Assembly (NCBI GenBank): GCA_036265815.1
Contig: DATAOI010000005.1
Span: forward strand, 62,001 to 126,000
Length of the DNA stretch: 64,000 bases
Origin: Gemmatimonadales bacterium
Lineage (GTDB): Bacteria; Gemmatimonadota; Gemmatimonadetes; Gemmatimonadales; GWC2-71-9
Direction of reading: 5' to 3'
Position 1 is the first letter of the stretch; each line of letters opens with the position of its first letter. The translations under genes were made by a program, and so were the position numbers. Under the pieces are notes generated by a model. It was not told the origin of the DNA. It worked only from the letters and a program-made list of their open reading frames with translations, and did no database searches. Shown here one piece after another: positions 835 to 60,865 of the stretch.

Positions 835-2391
835 ATGGCCACCAAGGACGTCGTGATCTTCGATACCACCCTGCGCGATGGCGAGCAGGCCCCCGGCAAC
901 AGCCTCTCCTCCGAAGAGAAGCTCCGACTGGCGCGCCAGCTCGATGCGCTCGGCGTCGACGTCATGGAGGCCGGGTTCCCCGCGGCGTCGGAGGGGGACT
1001 ATCGCGCGGTCCGGGAGATCGCCACCGAGCTGCGGCGGCCGGTCGTCGCCGCCCTGGCGCGCTGCCACGATCGCGACATCGAGCTGGCCGGCGAGGCGAT
1101 CCGGTCGGCCGCGCGAGGCCGGCTGCACGTGTTCATCTCCACCTCGGACCTCCACATCCGGGAAAAACTCAAGACCACCCGCGAGGACGTGCTCGACCGC
1201 GCCCGGGCGGCCATCCGCCAGGCGCGGAGCTATACCGACGACGTCGAGTTCTCCGCCGAGGACGCTAGCCGGACCGATCCGGAATTCCTCTGCCGGGTGG
1301 TGGAGCTGGCCATCGCGGAGGGCGCCCGCACCGTGAACCTGCCGGATACCGTGGGCTACGCGCTGCCGGCGGAATACGCCGCCATGTTCCGCGACGTCCT
1401 GGCCCGAGTGCCCGGCGCCGACCGGGTGGTGCTGAGCGCCCACTGCCATGACGATTTGGGACTCGCCGTGGCCAACAGCCTGGCGGCGATCGAAGCCGGG
1501 GCAGGGCAGGTCGAATGCACCGTGAATGGCATCGGCGAGCGCGCCGGGAACGCCGCCCTGGAAGAGATCGTCATGGCCAGCCACGTGCGCGGCCAGGCGG
1601 TGACCTTCCGCTGCAACGTGGAGACCCGCGAGATCTACCGCACCAGCCAGCTCCTCTCCTACCTCACCGGCGCGTTTCCCCAGTCCAACAAGGCGATCGT
1701 CGGCCGGAACGCCTTTGCCCATGAGGCCGGCATCCACCAGCACGGGATGCTGCAGAACGGGCTCACCTACGAGATCATCCGTCCCGAGATGGTGGGAATT
1801 CCCCGCTCCACCCTGGTGCTGGGCAAGCACTCCGGGCGACATGCGCTGGAGCGCCGGTTCCGGGATCTGGGGTACGACCTGGGCGAGGCCCAGCTCACCG
1901 AGGTCTACCGCCAGTTCATCGCCCTGGCCGACCGGAAGCGCGAGATCCTCGACGAGGACCTGCTGGCGCTGGTGCACGAGAGCTTTCAGGATGCCGAGGA
2001 GGCCTACCAGCTCAGTCACTTGCGGGTCGTCTGCGGCAGCATCAGTCCCACGGCAGAGGTGCGGATGACCGGTCCCTGGGCCGGCGAGCGGTCCGCCCGG
2101 GGCACCGGCGATGGCCCGATCTCGGCCGCGTTCACCGCGATCAGCGAGATCCTGGGACATCAGATCGAGGTGGTGAGCCTGTCGCTCCGATCGCTCACGC
2201 CGGGGCGCGACAGCGTCGGGCAGGTCTTCCTCCAGGCCAACGTCGACGGCAAGTCGCTCTCGGGGAACGGCGCATCCACCGATATCGTGGAGGCGAGCGC
2301 GCGCGCGCTGGTGCACGCGCTCAACAAGGCCTACCACGCCGACCGGCTGGAGGCCACCTCGCTCAACTCCATCTATCTCTGGGGCGTGTGA
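835..2391 (+). CDS. leuA: 2-isopropylmalate synthase
   Basis: 518 residues, the usual length. It condenses acetyl-CoA with 2-oxoisovalerate, the first step of leucine synthesis. The HMGL-like TIM barrel opens with [13 protein letters not shown] (about 9-21), with the metal and acid residues of the family; HCHDDLGLA (about 203-211) gives the metal-binding His pair, and NGIGERAGN follows. From about residue 390 a C-terminal regulatory domain is present, so leucine feedback inhibition is expected. First gene of a seven-gene operon; its TGA overlaps the ATG of ilvB by one base. Transcription is probably attenuated through the leader peptide and terminator just upstream. Confidence 0.97.
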
Positions 2392-4112
2392 TGGCCGAGC
2401 TCCTGACCGGCTCCCAGATTCTCTGCCGGGCACTGCTGGAGGAGAAGGTGGATCTCCTCTTCGGCTATCCCGGCGGGGCGATCATGCCGTTCTACCACGC
2501 GCTGCCGGAGTTCCCCGGATTGCGCCACGTGCTGGTGCGGCATGAGCAGGCGGCGGCGCATGCCGCCGATGGCTATGCCCGCTCGAGCGGCCGGGTCGGC
2601 GTCTGTGTCGCCACGTCGGGGCCGGGTGCGACCAACCTGGTGACGGGGCTCGCCACGGCCCACATGGACAACACGCCCCTGGTGGCGATCACCGGCCAGG
2701 TGCCCCGGGCGATGATCGGGAGGGATGCCTTTCAGGAGACCGACATCATCGGCATCACCCAGCCCATCACCAAACACAATCGCCTGGTCGAAGACGTCGA
2801 GGAGCTGGCCGATGCCGTGCGCGAGGCGTTCGCCGTGGCACTTGAGGGGAGACCCGGTCCGGTGCTGCTGGACGTGCCCAAGGACGTGCAGAACCAGAAG
2901 GCGGAGTGGACCGGCGGGCGTGCCGAGACGCCGGGCGCGATCGCCGGTGCGTCCGGCGTGGGCGACCGGGCGGCCGGGATCCGGGAAGCCGCGAGACTCG
3001 TGGCCCAGGCCGAGCGGCCGCTCATCATGGCGGGACACGGAGTCATCCTGGCCGGCGCCTACGACGAGCTGAGGATGCTGGCGGAGCGGACCGGCGTTCC
3101 GGTCATCACCACCCTGCTCGGCATCAGCGCTTTCCCCGAGTCGCACCCGCTGCACCTGGGGATGCCGGGGATGCACGGCGAGGTGCACGTCAACCGGGCC
3201 ATCCAGCAGGCGGACCTCATCATCGGCCTGGGGCTCAGGTTCGACGATCGGGTGACCGGCAACCTGGCGGCGTTCGCGCGCGGGGCCAAAGTGGTGCACG
3301 TCGAGCTGGATCCGAGCGAGATCGGCAAGAACGTGCCGGTGACCGTGGGTCTGGTGGGCGACGTGGGCGAGGTCCTCCGCGAGCTGCTCGCGGCCGTGCC
3401 CCCACGCGATTGCGAGGCATGGCGGGACGAGATCGCCGGCCTCATGCGCCCCCGGGTGGAGAGCTTCCGCGGCGGGCTCTCTCCCGAGTCGATCCTCGGC
3501 GCCATCGACCAGGCCTCGGGCGGACGCTGCACCATCGTCTCCGACGTGGGCCAGCACCAGATGTGGGTGGCCAAGTTCTTTCCCTACCGGCGACCCAATA
3601 CCCATATCACCTCGGGCGGGCTCGGCACGATGGGGTTCGCGGTGCCCGCGGCGATGGGTGTGGCGCTGGCCCGTCCGGACGAGCCGGTCTGGGCCATCTC
3701 GGGTGACGGCGGATTCCAGATGAACATGCAGGAGATCGCGACCATGGTGCAGGAAGGCATCCCGGTGAAGATGGCGATCTTCAACAATGGCTACCTGGGG
3801 ATGGTGCGGCAGTGGCAGCAGTTCTTCCACGGCCGGCGCTATTCGGCCACGCCGATCTGGAGTCCGGACTACGTCAAGCTGGCGGAGGCGTACGGCATTC
3901 CCGGATGGCGGGTGGAGAGCGCGGCCCAGGTGGACGAGGTGCTGCGGGGCGCGCTGGCCCAGCCGGGGCCCGCGGTGGTGGAGTTCCTCATCGAGCAGGA
4001 AGCCAACGTGTTTCCCATGATTCCCCCCGGCGCCTCCCTCTCCGACGCCATCGAGTCGGAAGAGGCCACGGCGGCCGCGCCGTCACCTGGTCCGAAACTG
4101 GTCCGGGTATGA
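2391..4112 (+). CDS. ilvB: Acetolactate synthase large (catalytic) subunit
   Basis: 573 residues from the ATG at 2391, which overlaps the leuA stop; a GTG one codon earlier is possible but not needed. This ThDP-dependent enzyme makes acetolactate or acetohydroxybutyrate for valine and isoleucine. Seen: [11 protein letters not shown] near the N-terminus, the [15 protein letters not shown] stretch with the ThDP-activating Glu (about residue 51), and the GDGGFQMNM...[12 protein letters not shown] ThDP/metal motif near 437-470. ilvN follows with an ATGA overlap, matching the stoichiometric catalytic-regulatory pair. The C-terminal 20 residues are a poorly conserved Ala/Pro tail. Confidence 0.96.
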
Positions 4113-5724: not shown

Positions 5725-7130
5725 CGCCACGCACCCTGTTCGAGAAGGTCTGGGAGGCGCACGTCGTCCAGCAGGAGCCCGGTGGGCCCGCCCTGCTCTA
5801 TGTCGATCTGCACCTGGTGCACGAGGTGACGTCGCCCCAGGCGTTCGAAGGGCTCCGCCTGGCGGGTCGCCGGGTGCGCCGGCCGGACCTGACCAAGGCG
5901 ACCGTGGATCACAACGTCTCGACCGGAGACCGGCGGCTGCCCATCGCCGACCAGGTCTCCGCCCGGCAGCTCGATGCCTTGCGGGCCAACGCGGGGGAGT
6001 TCGGGGTGGAGCTGTTCGACCTCAACTCCCCGAACCAGGGCATCGTGCACGTCATCGGCCCGGAACTGGGGCTCACCCAGCCGGGAATGGTGATCGTGTG
6101 CGGGGACTCCCACACCTCGACCCATGGAGCGTTCGGCGCGCTGGCGTTCGGGATCGGGACCAGCGAGGTGGAGCACGTCCTGGCCACTCAATGCATCGTG
6201 CAGTCCCGTCCCCGGACCATGGAAGTTCGCTTCACCGGCATGCCCGCCCCCGGAGTCGGCGCCAAGGACCTCATCCTGGCGGTGATCCGCCGGATCGGGA
6301 CGGCGGGCGCCACCGGCCACGTGATCGAGTACACCGGCGAGGCGATCCGGGCCCTCTCGATGGAAGGCCGGATGACCATCTGCAACATGTCCATCGAGGC
6401 CGGCGCGCGCGCGGGCATGGTGGCACCGGACGCGAAGACGCTTGCCTACCTGGCCGGCCGGCCGCGGTCTGCGTCAGGGGAGGAATGGAGCCGGTCGAGC
6501 GCGGTGTGGAACGAGCTCGCCACCGATCCTGGTGCGACCTTCGACCGGGAGATGAAGCTCGATGCCGCCGCCATCGGCCCCCAGGTCACCTGGGGTACGA
6601 GTCCGGGGATGACGGCCGAGATCACCGAGTTGGTCCCCGACCCGACCGAGGCACCCACCGATGCCGACCGGCAATCGTACCAACGCGCGCTCGAGTACAT
6701 GGGACTCCGTCCCGGAACGCCATTGGAAGGCCTCAAGGTCGATCGGGTGTTCGTGGGCTCCTGCACCAACGCCCGGATCGAAGACCTGCGCGAGGCCGCC
6801 GGTGTCGCGCGCGGCCGCCGGGTGGCGAGCGGGGTGCGCGCGATGGTGGTGCCGGGTTCGCAGCAGGTGAAGGCCGCCGCGGAGCGCGAAGGTCTCGACC
6901 GGATCTTCACCGAGGCCGGCTTCGAGTGGCGCAATCCAGGTTGCTCGATGTGTCTCGGCATGAACGAGGACATCCTCGGTCCCGGCGAGCGATGCGCATC
7001 GACATCAAACCGGAATTTCGAGGGACGGCAGGGCAGGGGAGGCCGAACGCACCTGGTGAGTCCGGTGATGGCGGTGGCGGCGGCGGTGGAGGGCCGTCTG
7101 GTGGACGTGCGGGGGTATATTCGGCGGTAA
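5721..7130 (+). CDS. leuC: 3-isopropylmalate dehydratase large subunit
   Basis: 469 residues from a GTG that overlaps the ilvC stop. With LeuD it interconverts 2- and 3-isopropylmalate using a [4Fe-4S] cluster. The cluster ligands are visible: [12 protein letters not shown] (Cys about 348) and [11 protein letters not shown] (Cys about 409 and 412). The [26 protein letters not shown]-type aconitase segment and the [12 protein letters not shown] substrate-binding stretch are both present. An AT-rich 155-bp gap, unlike the overlaps elsewhere in the operon, separates it from leuD. Confidence 0.96.
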
Positions 7131-53750: not shown

Positions 53751-56729
53751 GTGTGGCGCCTGACCGCCGGCCGAACCGCGTCGCCCCCATCGCCCACGGC
53801 AGCGCAACGCCGCGCCATCGAGGCCCCCCTGGGGCCGATGCTGGTCGTGGCCGGACCGGGCGCGGGCAAAACGTTCTGCCTGATCGAGCGCATCCGGCAC
53901 CTCATCCAGCACCATGAGGTGCCGCCGGGCCGGATCTGCGCGGTCACCTTCACCAACAAGGCAGCCGACGAGATTGCCCACCGCCTCCGCGAGGCCATCG
54001 GCGTCGGAGCGGACGAGATCACCCGCGGCACGCTGCACGCGCTCTGTCATTCGGTGCTGCGTGCCCATTCCGACGCGGTAGGTCTGGCGCGTGGGTTCGG
54101 CATCGCGAGCCCGGACGACCAGCGCCGGGTGCTCCAGCGGCTCAAGATCCCGAAAAAGCGTCACCCCGCGCTCCTCGCGCTGTTTGGCCGGCATCGGCTG
54201 CAGCAGTATCAGCTCAGCGCCAGCGATCAGGACCTGCACGACCGCTATCGCGCCGCGCTCCAGCGGCGGCACCTGGTCGATTTCGATGACCTCATTGGCT
54301 TGACGGCCGAGGTGCTGCGCTCCTCCCCGGAGGCGGCCGCGGCCACGCGCGCCCGCTGGGACCACGTGCTGGTCGATGAGTTCCAGGATCTGAGTCTCGC
54401 GCAGTACGAGGTGATCACCCGCATCGCCGCGGGGCACCGCAACTGCTTCGTCGTGGGCGACGACGAGCAGTCGATCTTCTCCTGGACCGGGGCCGACCCG
54501 CACATCCTCGATCGCTTCCGGACCGAGTTCGCGATCGGCGACCCGGCGGTGCTCAATCACAACCGACGGTGCTCGATCCAGATCTTCGACGTGGCGCGAC
54601 GGCTCATCGGCTGCAATCCCTGCCTGTTCGATAAGCGCATCGAGGCCGACCGGCCTTCCGAGCACGACGTGGCCGCGCTGGTGTTCGATGACGAGGCCCT
54701 GGAGGCAAGCTGGGTCATCGCCGATCTGCGGCGCGACCGCTCGGCGTCCGGCCTCGAGTGGGGCGAGTATGCGCTGCTCTACCGCCAGCACGCGCTCGGC
54801 CAGTACCTCGAGACCCAGCTCCTGCAGGCGGACATTCCCTGCCGGCTCGCCACCGGCCAGGCGCTACTGGACGACGAGGTGATCGCGTATGTCATCGCCT
54901 CGCTTCGCCTGATCCATTCGCCGGACGACCCGTTCGCCATGGAAGCGCTGGCCGAGCGCCTGCTTCCCGGACATGTGCTGGATCAGGCCCGCGGCACGGC
55001 CGCGGCCCCCGAGCTGCTGGAGAATCTGCGTCGCCTCGCGCAGGGGCTGACCAAGGACGAGCCCGACCGGCCAGCGGCCTACCGGTTCATCTTCCATGTC
55101 GAGAATCTGGCTGCCCTGCCGCGGGCGCACCGGTCCTTGGGCACTCTGGTGGAGGAGCTGTTGGGGCAGCGGATCGGCCCCTACCGCAATCCCCTGGACG
55201 AGCACGCCGCCGAGCTCACCGATCCGGCCGAATTTCCCGAGGCACCGGCATTGGCGCGGCGACTTGCGGATGCCTTGGACCACGGCCGGCGTGTGCGGCT
55301 GGTGCGGGATCGCGGGGTCGAGATCGCCGTCGGTCGCATCCTCGCCGCCGCCGGTTTTGGAGAGGTGCTGCCCCTCGCGCCGGGCGAGGCCGCGTTGCCC
55401 GGCGACTGCGTGCTCGGTCCCACCGATGCGCGGCCGGGGCACTGGCCGCTCCTGGTGTTCAAGGCCGCTCAGCTACTCGCCACTCGGGATCAACGACGCC
55501 GCCTGCTGGATTACGTCGCCTTCGACCTCGAGACCACCGGCAAGGACCCGAGGGAATGCGAGATCGTGGAGATCGCGGCGGTGCGAGTCAGAAACGGGGT
55601 GATCGTCGATCAGTTCCATCGGCTGGTGCGCCCGGCGCGGACGATTTCCGCGGCCGCCACCAAGGTCCACGGTTATCGCGACGCCGACGTGTGCGAGCAG
55701 CCGTACTTCGCCGAGATCTGGCCCGAGTTCGTCGCGTTCGTGCAGTCCGACGTCCTGGTGGCGCACAACGGCCAGCAGTTCGATGTCCCGCTGCTTCGCC
55801 GGATGGCGGCGGGCGCGCCCGGGCTCGACCGGCTGGTGTTCTTCGACACCTTGCCGCTGGCACGCTCCCTCTGCGCGGGCAGCGCCAGGCTCGAGGACCT
55901 GGCGCGGCAGTTCGGGGTAGACGTGGGGCGTGCCCATCACGCCCTGGACGACGTGAGCATGCTGGCCGCCGTCGTGCATCGCCTGGGCGAGCTCAACCTG
56001 GCCCGCGCGCGGATTACGGCAATGGTGAGCTCGCTGGGCTATCTCGGCCTGGCCTTCGCGCTGAATGACTGCCGGGAGATGACCCTGGAGGAGCAGCTCC
56101 TCCGGGACCTCGCGGTGCCCGCCGTGCTGGGGCGGTTCAGCACCTGCCTCGAGGTCTACGCCGACGAGCGCGAGGCCGCGGGGGCGGATGCGCCGACGGT
56201 CGACGTGGTCGTCGAGCGGCTGGGCGGCGTGCGACTGCTCGAGCGGCTGCGGGCGGAGCGCTCGCCGTCCGACAGGTATCCGGCGGCCGTGGCGCGCCTG
56301 CACGCGCTGATCGGTTCGGTCCAGGCCTCGACGCTCGGGGAGAGCATCGAGCTGCTGCTCGCGCGAGCGGCGCTTTCCACCAGCGCCGATGCCGAGGTGG
56401 ACCAGCGCCGGGTGAACCTGCTGACCCTGCACGCGACCAAGGGCCTCGAGTTCTCCCGGGTGTACATCATCGGAGCGGAGGATCGGCTGCTGCCGGGTGA
56501 CCGGGAGCTCAAGAGCGACGACATCAAGGCGCTCCAGGAGGGGCGCCGGCTGCTGTACGTCGGGATGACGCGGGCGAAGGATCGGCTGGTGCTCACCCGG
56601 ACGGTGCGGCGGGAGGGATGGAGCTCTGGAGGGGATCTGTTTCTCCGTGAGGCGGGGCTCACCTCGGCGGCGCCGGGGGAGGAGTCGGGGAATGGAGCGC
56701 TCGCGTCGGGTGAGGCGGAGCTGGTGTAG
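53751..56729 (+). CDS. UvrD-type helicase with an inserted DEDDh 3'-5' exonuclease domain
   Basis: 992 residues from a GTG. SF1A helicase motifs: Walker A AGPGAGKT (34-41), FTNKAADEIAHRL, LVDEFQDLSLAQYEV (II), GDDEQSIFSWTGA (III), then LLTLHATKGLEFSRVYIIG (V, about 890) and YVGMTRAKDRLVL (VI, about 936). Between the halves, at about 585-745, is a DnaQ-like exonuclease with all acidic residues: FDLETTGK (I), AHNGQQFDVPLL (II) and HHALDDVSML (III, about 729). A helicase and proofreading-type nuclease in one chain suggests DNA end processing or repair. No AddB- or RecB-type nuclease motif is seen. Confidence 0.9.
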   Translation: MWRLTAGRTASPPSPTAAQRRAIEAPLGPMLVVAGPGAGKTFCLIERIRHLIQHHEVPPGRICAVTFTNKAADEIAHRLREAIGVGADEITRGTLHALCHSVLRAHSDAVGLARGFGIASPDDQRRVLQRLKIPKKRHPALLALFGRHRLQQYQLSASDQDLHDRYRAALQRRHLVDFDDLIGLTAEVLRSSPEAAAATRARWDHVLVDEFQDLSLAQYEVITRIAAGHRNCFVVGDDEQSIFSWTGADPHILDRFRTEFAIGDPAVLNHNRRCSIQIFDVARRLIGCNPCLFDKRIEADRPSEHDVAALVFDDEALEASWVIADLRRDRSASGLEWGEYALLYRQHALGQYLETQLLQADIPCRLATGQALLDDEVIAYVIASLRLIHSPDDPFAMEALAERLLPGHVLDQARGTAAAPELLENLRRLAQGLTKDEPDRPAAYRFIFHVENLAALPRAHRSLGTLVEELLGQRIGPYRNPLDEHAAELTDPAEFPEAPALARRLADALDHGRRVRLVRDRGVEIAVGRILAAAGFGEVLPLAPGEAALPGDCVLGPTDARPGHWPLLVFKAAQLLATRDQRRRLLDYVAFDLETTGKDPRECEIVEIAAVRVRNGVIVDQFHRLVRPARTISAAATKVHGYRDADVCEQPYFAEIWPEFVAFVQSDVLVAHNGQQFDVPLLRRMAAGAPGLDRLVFFDTLPLARSLCAGSARLEDLARQFGVDVGRAHHALDDVSMLAAVVHRLGELNLARARITAMVSSLGYLGLAFALNDCREMTLEEQLLRDLAVPAVLGRFSTCLEVYADEREAAGADAPTVDVVVERLGGVRLLERLRAERSPSDRYPAAVARLHALIGSVQASTLGESIELLLARAALSTSADAEVDQRRVNLLTLHATKGLEFSRVYIIGAEDRLLPGDRELKSDDIKALQEGRRLLYVGMTRAKDRLVLTRTVRREGWSSGGDLFLREAGLTSAAPGEESGNGALASGEAELV

Positions 56730-57123: not shown

Positions 57124-59061
57124 ATGACTCTCTGTGCCCAGTGCGGAGCCGAGCACGATCCGGGCACGAGTCCCTGCCGAGATTCCACCCTGGTTGGCCG
57201 GACCCTGGGCGCCGGCATTAGAGTCAGGGAGCACCTAGGCGACACCCCGTTCGGGAAGCTCTACAGAGCAGTGTACCCGAGCGGCGCCGAAGTCGCCGTC
57301 CTGCTTCTTGGCTCGCGTGCCAGCGACCCGGCCGAGCTTGCACTGCTGCGGGAGCGCTTCCGCCAGGCGATCCAGATCCAGCACCCGAATGTCGCCGCGA
57401 TCCATGACCTGAGCGAGACCGCTGATGGGCTGGTCTACGTCGTGGCCGAGTACCTCGGGGGCGAGGGCGAGCTGCTGTCGGAAACTCTGGCCCGGCGGGG
57501 CCGTTTGTCGCAGGATGAAGCTCTGGATCTCTGCTTCCAGACGGCCGCCGGCCTGACGGCGGCGCACGCGGCGCGGTGGGTTCACGGGGATCTATCGCCC
57601 GAGACCATCCTCTTGAGCCGGACCGGCAGGGGCACCCTGGTCAAGCTGATCGGCTTTACTCAGGCCTCCGTTCTGGCGAACCCGGTGTCCACCCCATTAG
57701 TAGCGGCGGATGGAGTGGTCGAGTATGCCAGCCCGGAACGACTCGCCTGCCAGAAAATCGACGAGCGGAGCGATGTGTACAGCCTGGGCGCCGTGCTCTA
57801 TCACCTGCTCAGCGGAGTTCCACCGACGCGACCGGCCGAAGGGGTCAGGCTCCCAGAGCCAATCCGCTCCGTGCTCTCCCGGGCGCTCACCCCTTCGCCC
57901 CTGAGGCGCTACCAGACGGTGGCGGAGTTCGTGGCAGCCATCACCCCGCCAGCGGAGCAGGTAGTCCGTCTCAGGTCCGGGGCAACGAAGCGCGCTAGGC
58001 GCAAGGTCGTGTCGGTTGGGGCCGCGGCGGCCGTCCTGATTACTCTTTCGGCTGGACTGTGGCTCTGGAGTACGCAGCGGCTGACGTTCAGTGGACTCAG
58101 GCGGCCCCGAGTGCAGGAATCCGGGGCCGTGACGCAACCCCCGCGCGGGTCCGTATTGGGCTCGTCCTCGACGTCCTCGGCCCCGACGCGTCCTCCTACT
58201 AAGCCCTCGTCTGCGTCCCCGGTACGACGCAATGCCGTGAGCTTCCCAACTGCCCCCGCCGCATCCGGTCCTCGCCCTGCCGATGGCGCTGTGAGCCGAG
58301 ACTCGGCACGGGAGTCCAAGATCAGCCCCTTCCGGCGCTCACACCCATGGGTCGCAGTCGCCGGTGAGCGATTCTATTATCGGAGCAGTTGTCCGGAGGC
58401 CTTCTCGCTTCGTGACCTGATCTACTTCCGCACCGAGGAGGAAGCGCGAGCGAGCGGGTTTGTGCCTGGCCGGGTTCACGGCTGTCTTGCATCGGGTACG
58501 GCGGCAGACAAGCTACTGGTCGATGTGCGCTCCGTCGATTCGACCATCCAGGTCGATCTTCGCTATGCCACGGCGAACAACTTCACGGGGGCGCCGCTTC
58601 CCGGCTACGAGGCGCCGCGGGCGCTGCTCCGCCCGGAGGTGGCCGCCGCAGTCGGCCGGGTGCAGGCCAGGCTCCGCAGCAAGGGCTTGGGGCTCAGGAT
58701 CTTCGACGCGTACCGCCCGGTGAGGGCTACGCTCGCGATGGTCGAATGGGCTGAGCGCACAGGGCGCCGGGAGCTGCTTGAAAGCGGGTACATCGCCAAG
58801 CGGAGCCGCCACAACCAGGGCGTCGCGGTGGATCTAACCTTGGTGGACCTCGCGACGGGTACCGAGCTCCCGATGGGCACGGCCTTCGAGGAGTTAACCC
58901 CCGCCGCTCACCTGGCCAATGCCACCGGTGAGGCGCTGCGCTCCCGACACCTCCTGGTCCGCGCGATGGAGTCAGAAGGGTTCGGTACCTATGAGCAGGC
59001 GTGGTGGCATTTCAACTATTCGCTCGAAGGGGCGATGCCGCTCGACGTGGTCATTCGCTAG
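57124..59061 (+). CDS. Pseudokinase fused through a membrane helix to a VanX-like D,D-dipeptidase domain
   Basis: 645 residues from the ATG at 57124 (TTG at 57118 also possible). Order: CAQC-type ribbon; a kinase fold (about 30-275) that lacks catalysis: Leu60 replaces the ATP-binding Lys, HGDLSPET (154-161) replaces HRDxKxxN, and LIGFTQ (175-180) replaces DFG; a membrane helix (about 295-314); a Ser/Pro/Arg linker; a small Cys-containing segment (C423, C454); and a VanX/DdpX-like domain (about 465-645). The latter keeps Arg531 (DAYRPVR), metal ligands H563 and D570 (SRHNQGVAVD) and H629 (WWHFN), but the catalytic Glu three residues before that His is Ala626. It may be a D-Ala-D-Ala sensor or scaffold, not an active dipeptidase. 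Confidence 0.85.
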   Translation: MTLCAQCGAEHDPGTSPCRDSTLVGRTLGAGIRVREHLGDTPFGKLYRAVYPSGAEVAVLLLGSRASDPAELALLRERFRQAIQIQHPNVAAIHDLSETADGLVYVVAEYLGGEGELLSETLARRGRLSQDEALDLCFQTAAGLTAAHAARWVHGDLSPETILLSRTGRGTLVKLIGFTQASVLANPVSTPLVAADGVVEYASPERLACQKIDERSDVYSLGAVLYHLLSGVPPTRPAEGVRLPEPIRSVLSRALTPSPLRRYQTVAEFVAAITPPAEQVVRLRSGATKRARRKVVSVGAAAAVLITLSAGLWLWSTQRLTFSGLRRPRVQESGAVTQPPRGSVLGSSSTSSAPTRPPTKPSSASPVRRNAVSFPTAPAASGPRPADGAVSRDSARESKISPFRRSHPWVAVAGERFYYRSSCPEAFSLRDLIYFRTEEEARASGFVPGRVHGCLASGTAADKLLVDVRSVDSTIQVDLRYATANNFTGAPLPGYEAPRALLRPEVAAAVGRVQARLRSKGLGLRIFDAYRPVRATLAMVEWAERTGRRELLESGYIAKRSRHNQGVAVDLTLVDLATGTELPMGTAFEELTPAAHLANATGEALRSRHLLVRAMESEGFGTYEQAWWHFNYSLEGAMPLDVVIR

Positions 59062-59164: not shown

Positions 59165-60865
59165 ATGACAATCATGCTTCGACGCGCTCTGACTCTGTGG
59201 CCGTGCCTCATGGTCGCGCTGGGCCCCGTTGCGTGCCGTCGGGGCGCCGACCCGATCGGCAAAGAGATCCGCAACCTGGTGTCGGCCGAAAAACCTCCGG
59301 CATACCTCGAGGGGATCCGCTGGAAGGTGGTCAGGCAGATCTACGAGGATCGGCAGTACCGCCCGCTATGGGTCGGAATGCGTCACGTCCCGCAGAGAAC
59401 CAAGGACTTGATCGCGAGCCTGTGTGATGCCGAACGGGAAGGACTTCGCTCCGGAGACTACCGCCTCGGTGAGCTCCGCCGCACCCTCGAGCGGTTACGT
59501 CCGAGCCTCGTCAAGCAAAGGCCGGAGTCATTCGCAGTGCTCGACCTCGAGCTCACGCGACGGTTCCTCGAGTACGGGGCTGATCTGTTCGCTGGCCGGC
59601 TCGATCCCAAGGCAGTCGCGTCCGGGTGGTACATCAGGGCGCGGCGCTCGAGTGTGGACAGCACGCTCCGGGCGGCATTGAAGGAGCAACAGTTTCACGA
59701 CATTGTGGCTCCCCTCCGTCCTCATCAGCCCGAGTATGCCGAACTGGTCAGAGCGCTTGCCGAATACCGCGAAATTTTTCGACGGGGTGGCTGGCCGGAG
59801 GTGCGGGGCCGTAGCAGACTCCGCCGGGGCGACCGGGGGGCCCGGGTAGCGGCGCTGCTTCGGCGACTCAGGACAACCGGGGACCTCCGCAGTTCGGCGG
59901 AGCCAAAGCCAGTGTACGACCGCGCTGTGGCCAAGGCGGTCGCGCGTTTCCAGGCGCGCCATGGAATCCCGAGTGACGGGATCGTAGGCGCAGCGACGCT
60001 CGCCGCGCTGAACGTGCCGGTCGAGGATCGGATTCAGCAGATCAAGCTCAACCTGGAGCGCTATCGCTGGCTCCCCGCAGAGTTTGAGCCCCGGCACATC
60101 TATGTGAACATTCCCGAATACGAGCTGTATGGCTACGATCGGGGCAAGCCGGTACTCAAGATGCGGGTCATGGTGGGCGACCAATACCAGGACGCGACTC
60201 CCGTGTTCGCGGACACGATGACGTTTGTGGTCTTCCGCCCGGAATGGTACGTGCCCCAGCGGATCCTGGTCGAGGAGATGATCCCGGAAATCAGGAAGAA
60301 GCGCTCCTATCTCGTCCGCCACCATCTCGAGGTGGTCGATGCCAATCGCGAGTCGCTGGTGCTTAACCCGCGCAGGGTCAACTGGTCCCGCGTGGACACC
60401 ACGCAAATCCGCATGCGGCAGAAAGCAGGAAGCACCAACCAGCTTGGCTTGGTGAAGTTCATGTTTCCAAACCAGTTCGCCGTCTATCTGCATGACACAC
60501 CCGACCGGGATTTGTTTACGCGGCCGAGGCGGACGCTGAGTCACGGCTGCGTGTTGGTGGAGAACCCGGTGGAGCTGGCCGACTATGCGCTGGCGGGGCA
60601 GGATGAGTGGAACGAGGAGAAGATCCGGGAGGCGATGGAAACACCGCATTCGGCAGATGAGGGGGGAGTCCTGGACAGCAACACAGTCACGCTGGCGCGG
60701 CCAGTGCCAGTCTACATCGTATACCTCACTGCATTCGTCCGAGACGGCGTCCTCAACTTTCGGCGCGATGTATATGGCAAGGATCGCGAGGCGATTGCCA
60801 GACTGGGAAAGCCGAGCCCGGGCGACCCCGGGCTGTGCGAGGAGCTCAAGAAGCTCGTTGAATGA
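59165..60865 (+). CDS. L,D-transpeptidase, YcbB/LdtD-like lipoprotein
   Basis: 566 residues from the ATG at 59165. Lipoprotein signal ending LGPVAC; an N-terminal scaffold domain; a peptidoglycan-binding helical domain (AVARFQARHGIPSDGIVGAATLAALN, about 258-285); and a YkuD catalytic domain with H460 and C462 in LSHGCVLVENP. These enzymes form 3-3 peptidoglycan cross-links and can replace D,D-transpeptidases. About 100 bp after the pseudokinase-VanX gene, so the two probably work on the same stem peptides. Confidence 0.9.
   Translation: MTIMLRRALTLWPCLMVALGPVACRRGADPIGKEIRNLVSAEKPPAYLEGIRWKVVRQIYEDRQYRPLWVGMRHVPQRTKDLIASLCDAEREGLRSGDYRLGELRRTLERLRPSLVKQRPESFAVLDLELTRRFLEYGADLFAGRLDPKAVASGWYIRARRSSVDSTLRAALKEQQFHDIVAPLRPHQPEYAELVRALAEYREIFRRGGWPEVRGRSRLRRGDRGARVAALLRRLRTTGDLRSSAEPKPVYDRAVAKAVARFQARHGIPSDGIVGAATLAALNVPVEDRIQQIKLNLERYRWLPAEFEPRHIYVNIPEYELYGYDRGKPVLKMRVMVGDQYQDATPVFADTMTFVVFRPEWYVPQRILVEEMIPEIRKKRSYLVRHHLEVVDANRESLVLNPRRVNWSRVDTTQIRMRQKAGSTNQLGLVKFMFPNQFAVYLHDTPDRDLFTRPRRTLSHGCVLVENPVELADYALAGQDEWNEEKIREAMETPHSADEGGVLDSNTVTLARPVPVYIVYLTAFVRDGVLNFRRDVYGKDREAIARLGKPSPGDPGLCEELKKLVE

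Follow-up and report, generated by a model that had tools for sequence, protein, structure and literature searches.

Domain architecture of the fusion protein

The window, by which we mean the whole 64,000-nucleotide stretch of Gemmatimonadales DNA analysed here, carries an open reading frame in which a kinase fold, a membrane helix and a VanX-like domain follow one another (Table 1). This arrangement had been proposed in a preliminary description of the DNA, and both the coordinates and the Pfam matches agree with it; the Ada-like segment, the zinc-ribbon-like N-terminus and the adjoining L,D-transpeptidase gene are additions to that description. The Pfam matches extend over residues 34–236 (Pkinase, E = 3e-24) and 465–632 (Peptidase_M15, E = 8e-27).

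Table 1. Features of the fusion gene and its downstream neighbour, in window positions.
Feature	Position	Strand	Basis
Pseudokinase-TM-pseudoVanX fusion gene	57124..59061	+	645 aa ORF, Pfam, structure model
Zinc-ribbon-like N-terminus CxxCxxxH...C, residues 4–18 (C4, C7, H11, C18)	57133..57177	+	Sequence
Pseudokinase domain, residues 22–275	57187..57948	+	Pfam Pkinase, PknA fold match, motif table
Leu60 for the ATP-binding Lys (VAVL, 57–60)	57301..57303	+	Motif table
HGDLSPET (154–161) for HRDxKPxN; Arg, Lys and Asn lost, Asp156 kept	57583..57606	+	Motif table
GFT (177–179) for DFG	57652..57660	+	Motif table
Predicted transmembrane helix, ~residues 295–315, KRARRK just before	58006..58068	+	Hydropathy; model helix 300–318
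Pro/Ser-rich linker, residues 320–404, predicted disordered	58081..58335	+	pLDDT about 30–45
Ada-like segment, residues 405–454	58336..58485	+	Weak PF02805 match (E 0.07, below cut-off); alignment
VanX-like M15 domain, residues 457–645	58492..59058	+	Pfam, VanX 1r44 alignment, fold match
Ala626 at the position of VanX catalytic Glu181 (ExxH)	58999..59001	+	VanX alignment; phylum motif scan
YcbB-type L,D-transpeptidase lipoprotein, downstream of the fusion	59165..60865	+	Scaffold + PG_binding_1 + YkuD, SHGC present

An AlphaFold2 model of the fusion, calculated from 51 window and locus sequences, had a mean pLDDT of 76, with values of about 94–98 for most of the VanX domain, about 80–96 for most of the kinase and 30–45 in the linker. 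Comparison by Foldseek gave a TM-score of 0.84 (RMSD 2.3) between the VanX domain and VanX (1r44), and of about 0.75 between the kinase domain and PknA. Hydropathy analysis of the 645 residues revealed a single hydrophobic segment (294–315). Because the basic stretch KRARRK precedes it, the kinase is predicted to lie inside and the VanX domain outside the membrane.

The Cys/His pattern of the N-terminus recurs in the second fusion described below and in the C41 paralogue; the match of the relatives' N-termini to Zn_Ribbon_1 is weak and below the Pfam cut-off. The Ada-like segment is common to the paralogue at L002 and absent from the second fusion. It also forms the end of a small secreted protein from a Chloroflexi MAG (WVASSRGHTYYQRGC...NLIYFRTEEEAQRAGYRRSTSRGC; L024, positions 5758–6145, forward strand). 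Elsewhere in the window, a UvrD-like helicase is encoded at positions 53751–56729 (forward strand), with a seeming DnaQ-like exonuclease segment (VAFDLETTG...AHNGQQFDVPLL) between the helicase parts.

A second fusion in the same genus

The search for kinase-TM-VanX architectures, proposed in the preliminary description, found the fusion in a second species of the genus (genome G048), again with Ala at the Glu position. There, an open frame of 629 residues contains a like N-terminus, a pseudokinase, a transmembrane segment, a linker and the VanX part. Beyond these two, no fusion was found in the phylum when 249 genomes were scanned for PF01427. Ten additional long-frame places with a readable ORF, as well as G182, have the Glu and no kinase; the scan also included a stretch of G281 without a readable ORF and many other frames of ~800–1000 aa that were not read singly. 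A peptide-pattern scan of 84,980 genomes, which reaches close relatives only, returned none. The survey thus covers the phylum by sampling and the wider bacteria through close-relative patterns. None of the papers searched joins a pseudokinase to VanX.

Long proteins with an intact (EWWH) M15 dipeptidase at the C-terminus are encoded at L004 (positions 1420–3504, reverse strand; G000:C33), at L075–L078 and in many of the ~800–1000 aa frames. Their upstream part has, by eye, the look of a β-lactamase/PBP4*-type serine hydrolase, and such proteins are common in the phylum sample.

The kinase half belongs to a family of pseudokinases

The ATP-binding Lys, the Arg, Lys and Asn of the HRD set and the DFG Asp had been reported as missing from the kinase fold, and the motif table bears this out. 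The αC Glu is gone as well, and the signature of an active Ser/Thr kinase (VAIK Lys, HRD...N, DFG) is absent, while seven comparison kinases of the same genome, serving as control, read HRDxKPxN and DFG.

The domain belongs to a family with seven members in four of the ten genomes of the genus; outside the genus, a search of the order (121 genomes, E <= 1e-60) detected none. All seven lack the β3 Lys and the αC Glu, and all read HG[D/R/N]LSPxT for HRDxKPxN and [G/H]F[T/S/A] for DFG. The position of Asp156 is variable, being Arg in G048 and Asn in the others. Close homologues with intact kinase residues, which would have spoken against a pseudokinase, are therefore not found within the family. 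Since the same residues are degenerate throughout the family, the pseudokinase state is older than the fusion to VanX.

The outer parts, by comparison, vary. They consist of VanX in the window and G048, of an Ada-like segment only in C41 and of a ‘QVYLRIGLDEA’ domain in C71 and in C258 of G045; a further kind of outer domain is found at the C-terminus of L135 (G043 C460) and L137 (G045 C303). Sister pseudokinases with the outer domain QVYLRIGLDEAxRQLG are encoded at L003 (positions 1483–3021, forward strand) and L048 (413–2182, reverse strand). The former, from the window genome, lies end to end with a gene for a PP2C-like phosphatase (L003, 3024–3902, reverse strand). A whole-protein search of the window's genome (G000) gave 105 matching places, most of them kinase-like; for a genome of 4.6 Mb, such a kinome is unusually large. 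No kinase, phosphatase or FHA partner gene is present beside the fusion gene.

The VanX-like domain has lost its general base

Residues were assigned by alignment to VanX (1r44), and those relied on fall within residues 15–186, the part covered by the PDB alignment. The metal ligands and the substrate Arg recognised earlier are present, H563, D570 and H629 corresponding to H116, D123 and H184 of VanX and R531 to Arg71. Additionally, Y481, D528 and S561 (Y21, D68 and S114 in VanX) are kept in both fusions. The replacement of the catalytic Glu by Ala, also noted earlier, is confirmed by the alignment of A626 with E181. Conservation of this Ala had been put forward as a check: it is found in the only other fusion and in none of the 36 free-standing relatives, in all of which the Glu is invariant. 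Across the 395 genomes sampled from the phylum, the DNA pattern encoding GFxxYxxAWWH[F/Y] has two occurrences, one in each fusion. A chance Ala in one MAG was considered and rejected, as it is present in both fusions and Ala-WWH in 2 of 395 genomes.

At 37 invariant columns the window fusion shows four differences (L510V, D589E, F591L and E626A, free-standing residue first) and the G048 fusion two (Gly to Thr at the position of VanX G138, and Glu to Ala), so that the loss of Glu is the only change common to both. When each of the 36 free-standing orthologues was left out in turn, between 0 and 3 columns differed, with none in 29 of them. The invariant columns have been spared in the G048 fusion (2/37 hit, P = 0.0015) and, less clearly, in that of the window (4/37, P = 0.057). 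Drift within the pocket is seen as Glu589 in place of VanX Asp142 in the window fusion and as an altered form of the conserved MGTPF loop in G048. In view of these drifted positions, the ligand may differ from D-Ala-D-Ala.

Judged by its residues, the outer domain is probably catalytically inactive. This is probable and not certain because an E204A variant of LdcB retains residual activity (PMC4087270). Together with the intact zinc site and Arg, that variant would speak for slow hydrolysis, or hydrolysis of some other substrate, by the fusion itself, with zinc and Arg sufficing or another base such as Glu624 standing in. We regard this as very improbable, given that the catalytic Glu is retained by every free orthologue and that Glu624, considered as a substitute in the preliminary description, is a Gly in G048.

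Origin and evolutionary constraint

In a tree of VanX sequences the two fusions group together (support 100/98) inside the genus's own clade of free-standing VanX (99/94). This placement points to a single capture of the genus's own VanX, and to one shared history for the fusion and the loss of Glu. Evolution of the VanX domain is somewhat faster in the fusions than in the free-standing proteins: the fusion branches measure 0.15 and 0.25, on a stem of 0.13, and those of the free-standing sisters 0.14 and 0.17. Between the two fusions, dN/dS (Nei-Gojobori) comes to 0.42 in the VanX part and 0.34 in the kinase, and to 0.38 in the adjoining transpeptidase, which is intact. As the value for the VanX part is well below 1 and close to that of the transpeptidase, the dead domain is still under constraint.

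These figures bear on the question of whether the fusion is merely decaying, the captured dipeptidase having no job and drifting as a tail of the pseudokinase. The accelerated evolution, the erosion of the loop in G048 and the hits at invariant columns, four and two versus none in the four free-standing controls counted, would all fit such a course. Decay would however be at odds with the dN/dS value, with the retention of zinc ligands, Arg and pocket in both fusions, with frames free of stops and frameshifts in two diverged species and with the confidently predicted fold of the domain, and we consider it improbable.

Synonymous divergence between the fusions is 0.82 in the kinase part and 0.43 in the VanX part, an about twofold difference. 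Compared in the kinase part, the window fusion, the G048 fusion and the C41 paralogue are about equidistant (62–63%). Gene conversion or exchange with a paralogue in the kinase part is possible.

The adjoining L,D-transpeptidase gene

In both fusion species the next gene, 103 bp downstream in the window and 68 bp in G048, encodes the L,D-transpeptidase, while the other flanks of the pair differ. Within the genus, the transpeptidase was found only in these two species out of ten members (E <= 1e-60), and neither possesses another VanX of the same clade at E <= 1e-15. In G042 and G045, VanX is free-standing, retains the Glu and lies elsewhere in the genome with its own leader ahead. No VanX was seen upstream of the YcbB-type gene in L101 and L102 among the matches listed; in G063, about 3 kb separates the VanX and YcbB-type genes, which share a strand. 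A functional link between fusion and transpeptidase is suggested by their adjacency in two genomes. An assembly chimera was rejected as explanation for the fusion, since a second, diverged genome has both the fusion and its neighbour, with another flank; in the window genome the gene is far from the contig ends.

The gene pair, whose transpeptidase was found in the genus, at that cut-off, only in the two fusion species, raises the possibility that a protein, for instance the transpeptidase or another envelope protein, is bound at the dead M15 site, the fusion then acting as a trans-envelope scaffold. A precedent is Sonic Hedgehog (Shh), an M15 pseudopeptidase with the same loss whose partners bind at its pseudo-active site (PMC11266112). 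The pocket-loop changes in both fusions would agree with this as well. Most residues of the substrate pocket are nevertheless still peptidase-like (33/37 and 35/37 invariant columns), and we hold such a scaffold to be rather unlikely.

Proposed function

The suggestion that two degenerate enzymes are joined across a membrane is substantiated by the motif losses in both halves and by the one predicted transmembrane helix. We give an about even chance to the fusion being a bitopic transmembrane pseudoenzyme receptor or scaffold which binds without cutting. The base alone is lost, zinc and pocket are kept, and a constrained domain sits on a conserved pseudokinase; this argues for binding without hydrolysis outside and for recruitment of partners inside.

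According to this model, a genus-restricted pseudokinase family with exchangeable outer domains would have taken over the periplasmic lipoprotein of VanX type native to the genus, the pseudokinase taking the place of the lipid anchor. The peptidase domain would then have lost its general base while retaining zinc, Arg and pocket, and would now hold a cell-wall ligand that it no longer cleaves. The likeliest ligand would be a D-Ala-D-Ala-like stem-peptide end or a protein carrying a mimic of it. A stem peptide is what the VanX ancestry suggests, and a protein ligand what Shh and the gene pair suggest. Binding may alter how the cytoplasmic pseudokinase clusters or folds into its conformation, and the pseudokinase might in turn recruit partners or pair with active Ser/Thr kinases, as in mycobacterial MviN. 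As an outcome, wall remodelling would be adjusted, including that by the L,D-transpeptidase encoded next door. The more specific version, in which a captured D-Ala-D-Ala peptidase devoid of its general-base Glu senses stem-peptide ends and controls L,D-transpeptidase-based wall remodelling, is put forward tentatively. If stem peptides are bound, the state of the cell wall would be sensed without any kinase activity of the receptor's own.

The transition of a functional wall peptidase into a signalling domain that only binds would here be caught between closely related species, for which the free-standing relatives of the same genus with their catalytic Glu serve as controls.

Comparison with known systems

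The outer domain shares with VanX and the M15D dipeptidases the fold, the zinc ligands and the equivalents of Arg71, Tyr21, Ser114 and Asp68, whereas VanX is a free protein with Glu181 and the fusion has Ala and is tied to a pseudokinase through the membrane. The PASTA kinases (PknB, PrkC, StkP) likewise combine a cytoplasmic kinase fold, one transmembrane helix and an outer domain, which in their case is wall-binding (PMC6448482). They are however active and carry PASTA repeats, none of which is matched in the fusion by Pfam, where an inactive kinase is combined with an enzyme-derived outer domain. In GLW pseudokinases the ATP Lys is replaced by Leu as in the fusion, but these have GLW for HRD, while the fusion has HGD. 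In BlaR/MecR the outer sensor is derived from a wall-enzyme fold and is placed on a membrane receptor, which resembles the arrangement proposed here. BlaR differs in that it is acylated by β-lactams and signals through a cytoplasmic metalloprotease; its role as a membrane-bound penicillin receptor is documented (PMC3305447).

MviN (MurJ) of Mycobacterium, from the ActPs3 family, of which an activation-loop deletion and MurJ helices are hallmarks, is also a membrane pseudokinase in which all catalytic motifs are dead, and it takes part in cell-wall control: phosphorylated by PknB, it recruits FhaA and restrains wall synthesis (PMC12599244). In contrast to the fusion, it has lipid-II flippase helices, a carbohydrate-binding domain and no VanX, and belongs to a separate kinase family; Pfam gave no MurJ match in the fusion.

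A parallel to the loss in the outer domain is the N-terminal domain of Shh, which is used for signalling. As in the fusion, zinc ligands and Arg are kept and the base is replaced, by an Ala three residues before the last zinc His (PMC11266112). Shh is an animal secreted ligand of distant homology only, whereas the M15 domain described here would be the outer domain of a bacterial membrane pseudokinase. Should the reading as a pseudopeptidase receptor be correct, the fusion would be a bacterial counterpart to Shh, paralleling the relation of the Hedgehog domain to the same peptidase fold.
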